From JAUWCW01 sp030609125 [NCBI: Candidatus Rokuibacteriota bacterium] (GTDB lineage: Bacteria; JAUVQV01), in contig JAUWCW010000044.1 of the NCBI GenBank assembly GCA_030609125.1, positions 1-10,424 of the forward strand: a DNA stretch of 10,424 bases, read 5' to 3'. Below, piece after piece: positions 2,931 through 10,424 of the stretch. The translations under genes were made by a program, and so were the position numbers. Under the pieces are notes generated by a model that searched no databases, was not told where the DNA came from, and saw only the letters and a program-made list of their open reading frames with translations. Numbering within the stretch: position 1 is the stretch's first letter; every line of letters begins with the position of its first letter.

Positions 2931-3461
2931 TTGCAACCGAGACAGAGAAGAGAGTCGTCACAGCCGAGACGAGCGGAAGAGAAAGAGTTCCTCGAAAAGG
3001 TGGTGAACATCAACCGGGTGGCCAAGGTTGTGAAGGGCGGCCGGAGATTCAGCTTCACCGCCCTTGTGGTCGTCGGTGACGGAAAAGGGCGTGTCGGCTG
3101 GGGGATGGGCAAGGCCAACGAGGTTCCCTCCGCCATCAGAAAGGGCATGGAGAAGGCGAAGAAGTCCCTGGTCGCCATCCCTCTGAAAAGGACGACTATT
3201 CCCCACCAGGTTCTCGGCCACTTCGGCGCGGGGAGGGTCATGCTCAAGCCGGCGTCCCAGGGAACGGGCGTCATCGCCGGCGGTCCGGTGCGTGCCGTCA
3301 TGGAGGCTCTGGGCGTCTCGGACATTCTCACCAAGTGCATCGGCACGAAGAACCCCAACAACGTCCTGAAGGCGACTTTCCAGGGCCTGCAGAGCATTCG
3401 CAGCGTGGAAGACGTGGCCCGCGTGAGAGGCAAGAAACCCGAGGAGATCCTCGCCCAGTAG
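2931..3461 (+). CDS. rpsE: 30S ribosomal protein S5
   Basis: S5 (uS5) sits on the solvent side of the 30S subunit near the mRNA entry and, with S4, affects decoding accuracy. The 176-residue protein has the N-terminal double-stranded-RNA-binding-like S5 domain (about residues 19-84, with [19 protein letters not shown] and the loop [17 protein letters not shown]) and the C-terminal domain (about 95-165, with [19 protein letters not shown] and [10 protein letters not shown]). The start is TTG at 2931. It is supported because the family normally has about 20 to 25 residues before the NRVAKV block, and no ATG in frame would supply them. A moderate AAGGGGG at 2912-2918 lies 12 bases upstream. The first 15 residues are arginine-rich and poorly conserved. 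Confidence 0.95.
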
Positions 3462-9681: not shown

Positions 9682-10107
9682 ATGCGACACCGAAAAGAGA
9701 AGAGGCAGCTGGGCAGGACGACGAGCCACCGCAAGGCCCTGCTGCGGAACCTCGTCACGTCCCTTCTCGAGAAGGAGAGGATAGAGACGACGCTGGCGAA
9801 AGCGAAGGAGCTTCGCCGCATCGCGGACAGGATGATCACCCTCGGCAAGAAGGGCGACCTGGCGGCCAGGCGCCGGGCTCTCAGGACGGTGCGGAGCAAC
9901 GAGGTTGTGCAGAAGCTCTTTTCGGATCTCGCCCTGCGCTACGAAGGCCGCCCCGGCGGCTACACGCGGATCTACCAGCTCGGGCCCCGTTCCGGTGACT
10001 GCGCGAGCATGGCTCTCATCGAGCTCGTCGACCGCCCCGACAAGCCCTCCGGCAAGAAGGCGAAAGAGGGCTCGGAGAAGAAGAAAGGATCCTCCGCCAA
10101 GAAGTAG
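9682..10107 (+). CDS. rplQ: 50S ribosomal protein L17
   Basis: L17 (bL17) binds several 23S rRNA domains close to the tunnel exit. The core (residues 1-117) is standard: [40 protein letters not shown], then [15 protein letters not shown] and the closing ALIELVD. It is followed by a 24-residue lysine/serine-rich tail (118-141, [19 protein letters not shown] and onward), which brings the total to 141 residues against about 127 in E. coli. The tail is low complexity and probably disordered, and similar tails occur in other bacterial L17 proteins. ATG 9682 follows AGGAG at 9672-9676. This is the last gene of the block and of the window. Confidence 0.98.
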
Positions 10108-10168: not shown

Positions 10169-10198
10169 TTGACAACCCCCGCCGTTTCCGTTAACAAT
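10169..10198 (+). promoter_or_regulatory. Candidate sigma70-type promoter downstream of rplQ
   Basis: An exact -35 box TTGACA (10169-10174) is followed after 18 bases by AACAAT (10193-10198, four of six matches to TATAAT); TAACAA one base earlier gives 17-base spacing. Transcription would start near 10205 and run into the palindromic element, or to a gene beyond the window. No ORF with a credible start follows within view. Confidence 0.45.
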
Positions 10199-10279
10199 CC
10201 ATCAGGGAGCACCTGCGCAACTCTGTCCGGGTTCCGCCCCGCCGTTTCCAGGGGGATGCTAAGGGCTCGCGCAAGAATA
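10199..10279. other. Non-coding spacer leading into the palindromic element
   Basis: There is no credible gene here; frames remaining open across it are continuations of out-of-frame reading of rplQ. The last part (10263-10279, GGGCTCGCGCAAGAATA) adjoins the left arm of the palindrome and has lower GC than the operon. It is probably the outer end of that element, whose matching partner would lie just beyond the window. Confidence 0.4.
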
Positions 10280-10424
10280 ACTTCACAGAATTGGCGCTCA
10301 GATTCAGGTCGTATTTGGTCGATCTGATTGAGCGAAACCGCAGGAATAGCAGGGCTATTTTGAGGATTTCGTGAATGAGGATCGATCGAAGACGGCCTGA
10401 AGATGAGATGCGAAAATGGGAAGT
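10280..10424 (+). repeat. Long imperfect palindrome (MITE-like or structured-RNA element), cut by window end
   Basis: Positions 10280-10350 align, without any gap, to the reverse complement of 10354-10424. By hand count, 44 of 71 positions are identical and 8 more form G-U pairs in + strand RNA; about 18 identities would be expected by chance. The apex is a perfect stem AATAGC (10345-10350) / GCTATT (10354-10359) with loop AGG. The best arm runs from 10303 to 10325, pairing with 10379 to 10401, with only one true mismatch. Local GC is about 48%, against roughly 60% in the genes. No coding capacity is seen. It could be a dispersed palindromic repeat, a MITE derived from an insertion sequence, or a small RNA; the right end is outside the window. 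Confidence 0.6.

Follow-up and report, generated by a model that had tools for sequence, protein, structure and literature searches.

The stretch of DNA analysed here (the window, 10,424 bases) ends inside a mobile element that probably belongs to a family of MITEs sharing a structured, conserved core, in which the folded plus-strand transcript would keep insertions tolerable. Mobility and structure are both well supported. The element is dispersed, has defined ends and a target-site duplication, and shares its ends with autonomous insertion sequences in other genomes, while one strand of its hairpin is under constraint. The acting molecule would be RNA, and it is probably the folded transcript that makes the insertions tolerable. 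The features of the window that bear on these conclusions are as follows.

9682–10107, plus strand: reading frame, from the list of reading frames, which we take to be rplQ (so named in the preliminary description and recognised by eye); it lies 155 nt upstream of the element, on the same strand.
10260–10262, no strand: left copy (TAA) of the 3-bp target-site duplication; the right copy lies beyond the contig end.
10263–10424, plus strand: ISAzo13-type MITE, the first 162 nt of about 179, from aligned full copies and their length.
10263–10283, plus strand: left terminal inverted repeat, 21 bp, from sequence comparison of copies.
10293–10411, plus strand: conserved interior hairpin, from a match to model R1 (119 of 119 positions, 125 bits, E 5.1e-33) and covariation.
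10334–10369, plus strand: apical part, consisting of the second internal loop and the apical stem-loop, in common with core model R3 (only 13.4 bits, E 0.061).
10421–10424, plus strand: start of the right terminal repeat (4 nt), from alignment with complete copies.

The last 145 bases of the window (10280–10424) form a gapless imperfect palindrome, as the preliminary description had reported, in which 44 of the 71 arm positions are Watson–Crick pairs. This exceeds every one of 2,000 dinucleotide shuffles (mean 17.8, s.d. 3.6, maximum 33). No other 145-base stretch of the window scores above 34, and the best scores in ten shuffled whole windows fall between 32 and 35. A further 8 of the 71 arm positions are G-U and 2 are A-C. 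The drop in GC content claimed earlier is real, the palindrome standing at 47% (the earlier figure was about 48%) versus 61% for the window. The predicted RNA fold of 10260–10424 has an energy of −68.4 kcal/mol on the plus strand (z −7.9) and −40.3 kcal/mol on the minus strand (z −3.0), a gap that is due in part to the wobble pairs. The bounds originally assigned were too small, as the element starts at 10263, behind the TAA duplication, and extends some 17 nt beyond the contig end. Between rplQ and the element lies an exact 13-base direct repeat, CCCCGCCGTTTCC, at 10177–10189 and 10237–10249, the two copies being 60 bases apart.

The host genome (G000; 376 contigs, 92% complete) contains the element at 15 distinct loci; the covariance model returned 16 matches, one of which is the reverse strand of a listed copy. 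The proposal of a palindromic dispersed element is therefore borne out, and neither of the contrary outcomes that had been named beforehand, an absence of copies or an ordinary fold, was found. The further copies are 80–95% identical, and fragments occur on contigs C99, C139, C208, C288, C298, C343 and C346. In the alignment of copies, which has 16 rows, two rows are the same copy read on both strands. Complete copies are usually 178–179 bp, one of 205 bp carrying an insertion; they start with GGGCTC[AG]CGCAAGAATAA and finish with the inverse of that start. The element is short (under 500 bp), non-coding and present in many copies, as MITEs are; nothing in its six-frame translation is claimed to be coding. 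The window contig (C53) stops 162 nt into a 179-bp repeat, and only 162 nt of this copy are present because the contig itself stops. Contigs C288, C298 and C343 also terminate at a copy or within 3 nt of one, so that the element explains why several contigs of this assembly stop where they do. On C346 an interior copy without terminal repeats (locus L028, 3006–3086) lies directly upstream of a tRNA-Arg(cct) gene (3098–3174).

The ends of the element are 21-bp inverted repeats with the pattern GGGYYCRCGCAAGAATAASTT, which occurs in at least 114 stretches among genome contigs. The matches listed include Acidobacteria, Planctomycetota, Gemmatimonadetes, Nitrospinota, Nitrospirae, Lentisphaerae, Desulfobacterales, Fermentibacteria, Krumholzibacteriia, Eisenbacteria, Myxococcota, Chromatiaceae, Sedimenticola and others. 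A Desulfosarcina plasmid carries one 157-bp copy, and the exact repeat pattern was absent from viral contigs. Among the matches listed there are 82 inverted pairs with at most five mismatches, 72 of them spanning 155–274 bp; together with 14 copies from the host genome these give 96 elements, 90 of which have 8-nt flanks. In this set, drawn from the matches listed and the host copies, 54 of 90 elements have identical 3-bp flanks, whereas shuffling gives a mean of 26.7 and at most 39; agreement never extends to 4 bp (0 of 90). Of the 58 elements with TAA or TTA on each side, 52 have the same triplet twice; the host copies by themselves give 6 of 13. The duplication is a 3-bp TWA, mostly at C-TWA-G. 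A clean empty site was not found, the orthologous site in two Sedimenticola genomes holding a different insert. A 14-base end, allowing one mismatch, occurs 2 to 167 times in each of 16 genomes that carry the element (reversed control, 0 to 9); the count of 167 is that of the isolate Sedimenticola hydrogenitrophicus. Elements at four loci (L055, L093, L107 and L155) are in a metagenome assembly titled Klebsiella pneumoniae, for which a wrong organism label is suspected. At L115, two facing matches to Acido-Lenti-1 (RF01687), at 1088–1133 on the minus strand and 1234–1279 on the plus strand, lie about 190 bp apart, near but outside a MITE, and this family, too, may represent part of some palindromic repeat.

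The element is identified as an ISAzo13-type MITE because its ends are also those of complete insertion sequences of the ISAzo13 family in other genomes. Matches to the ISAzo13-type transposase (PF07592) were found in 8 of 17 genomes searched. Thirteen transposase loci, representing 11 distinct places, were scanned for the ends, which occur on both sides of the transposase at three places: L201 (2,031 bp, duplication CTA), L202 (1,907 bp, duplication TTA) and, in degenerate form, L211. At two further places, L206 and L208, they occur on one side only, and at the other six they are absent. The window element thus resembles these insertion sequences in its 21-bp ends and 3-bp duplication and differs from them in having no transposase. 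None of the loci with common ends is in the host genome, and PF07592 was not found in the 92%-complete host assembly; the host transposase may have been lost or may be located in the unassembled part. The interior hairpin is not matched in the autonomous loci, neither by R1 or R2 in L197, L202, L206 and L208 nor by R3 in L201, L202, L206, L208 and L337. Other candidate partners were rejected. Clustering of reading frames beside the repeats gave recurring clusters that mostly overlapped the elements, none being recognised by eye as a transposase, and none of 21 loci with a PF01609 transposase has close repeats on both sides. A fusion of DruA and a Tn5-type transposase (L181/L182) has a 4-mismatch repeat on one side, and ISAzo13 is preferred over it because the match on its second side, with six mismatches, is only at chance level. 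At L182 (2346–4634; contig G068:C188) this Tn5/IS4-type transposase is fused behind the DruA domain (PF14236) and adjoins half an element; DruA and PF01609 matches also occur on one host contig (C91, about 1049–2639; L192).

Covariation within the interior hairpin points to selection on its structure. The interiors of seven representatives of the window's class are 51–81% identical; mean column identity is highest at the ends (0.84–0.86), drops to 0.56 and 0.60 in the two arms and rises again to 0.75 at the apex. In alignment A1, comprising 14 sequences of this class that we chose, 29 of 68 pairs have changed on both sides with the pair kept (17.9 ± 2.0 in shuffles, 0 of 500 reaching the observed value), and the covariation score is 0.382 versus 0.188 shuffled; these shuffles ignore relatedness. 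In a second class (A4; the apex of 24 sequences), 11 of 15 pairs are double-changed, versus 7.2 in shuffles that likewise ignore relatedness (1 of 500). The structural part of the earlier proposal of a large structured RNA is thereby upheld, and we infer that the structure acts as RNA. Where columns were paired by Watson–Crick counts alone, which is neutral as to strand, G-U outnumbers A-C by 78 to 18 cells in A1 (60 to 16 by group) and by 82 to 34 in A2 (64 to 25 by group), the groups being only partly independent. The excess is weaker at the level of columns (31 to 15 in A1, 29 to 19 in A2); element by element it is 90 to 33 in A1 and only 219 to 175 in the second class. Taken together, the double changes that keep pairs and the excess of G-U over A-C suggest selection on the plus-strand transcript. 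Scans of the window, of a single full copy and of two 20-locus sets gave no Rfam 15 family above its gathering threshold at the elements. Weak matches to Streptomyces-metH in L307 and whalefall-1 in L315 were discarded, being below the gathering score and away from the cores. With genes called by our own crude codon model, orientation showed no significant bias, either for sense placement in tandem contexts (24 sense versus 14 antisense, P = 0.14) or for genes reading into the element (39 versus 30, P = 0.34). The first set (14 to 10 and 38 to 28) likewise displayed no significant bias, and the host genome alone gave 6 sense to 0 antisense.

The position of the element, 155 nt downstream of rplQ and on the same strand, would suit a terminator, or a 3′ element acting in cis, that belongs to the ribosomal protein operon. 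This is extremely improbable, as the same element occurs at 14 other loci near other reading frames, and a full copy, in which neither a promoter nor a terminator was found, has no terminator-like site. A more serious but still unlikely explanation is that the element is an ordinary palindromic MITE, in which the hairpin is a by-product of arms kept alike by hairpin extrusion or template switching and the centre is shared by descent and functionless. Hairpins are indeed common in MITEs (PMC10969869, PMC2229807), correction between the arms at the DNA level also yields double changes, and the lack of a significant gene-orientation bias fits such an element. Arm correction in DNA, however, gives no bias of G-U over A-C, and the apex is better conserved than the arms in the seven representatives.

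The same bias could arise if the constrained molecule were single-stranded DNA, folded and recognised during replication or transposition, as in IS200/IS605 or in REP/RAYT systems, which are marked by a Y1 transposase and GTAG-type palindromes. G-T is better tolerated than A-C in folded DNA, and the bias follows the element rather than gene orientation. In contrast, the inverted ends, the 3-bp duplication and the DDE transposase partner point to double-stranded cut-and-paste, and a role for single-stranded DNA is correspondingly improbable. A MITE with a selected plus-strand transcript is the reading that we prefer.

A similar core is found in elements whose ends are not of ISAzo13 type. R1 and R2, two models from which the ends had been left out, were used in a survey of 386 diverse genomes that included the host; the genome collection has two genomes of the host phylum. 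At E ≤ 1e-5, R1 matched 12 and R2 matched 11 of the 386, and core model R3, under strict filters and with at most 12 candidates scored per genome, matched 30 of the 386 genomes and 26 of 327 genera. As many as 112 model matches occur within one genome, and one surveyed genome (G370; L297, L299, L301, L302 and others) has at least 12 core matches of identical score, which suggests recent spread. Ends were examined at 35 loci brought in by R1, R2 or R3. Eight (L314, L317, L319, L323, L326, L333, L334 and L335) have no convincing ends, L332 is ISAzo13-like, in L316 and L351 the core lies off-centre between the ends, and the remaining 24 have inverted ends, some degenerate, nearly symmetric about the core, making elements of about 162–187 bp. 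At L314 (610–728), the core-like hairpin, without clear terminal repeats, is between tRNA-Leu and tRNA-Cys genes. Eight other loci (L350, L353, L354, L356, L357, L358, L359 and L360), of 37–49% GC, contain two inverted core matches about 25–40 nt apart.

A similarity test of 15 ends (99% of the null distribution at 11 of 20) set the ISAzo13 end apart from all others and identified a CTAGTGTC group (L307, L309, L310, L311, L324 and probably L297) and a CCCGnATTTCTCA group (L312, L331 and L336). These are three clearly unlike kinds of end, and more are possible; how many are independent is uncertain because weak links join nearly all non-ISAzo13 ends. A division into eight unrelated kinds of terminal repeat was not sustained by the test. 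The end of L309, a core-carrying element in the host genome, is CTAGTGTCCTGTCCC, which also bounds both sides of an element annotated as IS630-family on a Cupriavidus plasmid; L309 is thus like an IS630-family insertion sequence in its ends, in contrast to the window element with its ISAzo13-type ends. The different ends could be explained, without swapping, by slow divergence alongside related transposases, since ISAzo13 and IS630 are related: the L197/L201 protein matches the ISAzo13 model at 1.1e-122 and the IS630 model at 1.8e-8.

The cores themselves covary. In alignment A5, comprising 22 cores of which 16 are from survey loci, 17 of 20 pairs are double-changed (13.6 in shuffles that ignore relatedness, 6 of 500), 89.7% of cells are paired versus 63.0%, and covariation is 0.650 versus 0.186; the 16 survey cores alone give 24 G-U to 5 A-C. 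The recurring shape consists of a helix, the loop CAAGGC/GCAACGC, a variable helix, the loop CCGnAGG/CGAGGA and an apical stem-loop, and the window's class shares with it mainly the CCGnAGG/CGAGGA loop and the apical stem-loop. R3 has its best place in the window at the apical match listed above, but with a low score, whereas R1 reaches 20–45 bits in eleven loci whose ends are of another type or not clear. We entertain, tentatively, a broader reading in which it is the core that evolves as a unit, as a structured RNA that is widespread, has escaped description and is carried on MITEs of ISAzo13, IS630-like and perhaps other transposase families, and has kept its two internal-loop motifs in many bacterial lineages while the terminal repeats changed. 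Our confidence in it is lowered because most non-ISAzo13 ends are weakly linked.

The inside of a MITE is usually regarded as filler. Both MITEs and ISAzo13 are already known, as are MITE transcripts that form hairpins (PMC10969869, PMC5896051, PMC9208149, PMC2229807, PMC4853749). Bacterial MITEs such as Correia/NEMIS, ERIC, RUP and QMITE are described there as small, non-coding and present in many copies, with terminal inverted repeats and with long stem-loops predicted for their transcripts (PMC10969869, PMC5896051, PMC2229807). The window element shares these features and differs in its centre, which has been conserved between phyla and turns up again in elements with different ends. ERIC was dismissed as a homologue of the core, one E. 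coli copy (L368) giving a best R3 score of 4.3 bits, which is noise, and no R1 match. The Chunjie MITE of Geobacter uraniireducens (38 copies, 178–235 bp, inverted and direct repeats; PMC10969869), compared by its published description only, is of similar size; the portion of that review cited here does not mention ISAzo13. We recognised no description of these elements or their core in the open-licence PMC literature, which lends weak support to their absence from it.

These data are best explained by a non-autonomous ISAzo13-type transposon whose 21-bp ends would be recognised in trans by an ISAzo13-family DDE transposase, which would insert it with the TWA duplication. Host read-through transcription of an insertion would then yield a transcript that folds into a long hairpin, whose conserved internal loops may form a specific shape, such as a site for a protein or nuclease or a signal for anti-polarity or processing, and this shape would keep insertions near genes tolerable. 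The significance of the family lies in its centre, which is strand-biased, covarying, kept between phyla and under different ends, and without an Rfam family in the scanned loci. A core model would annotate many unlabelled repeats at once and, if the RNA reading is true, an old question could be put to the test: how small transposons can lie next to genes or within operons and yet leave expression intact.
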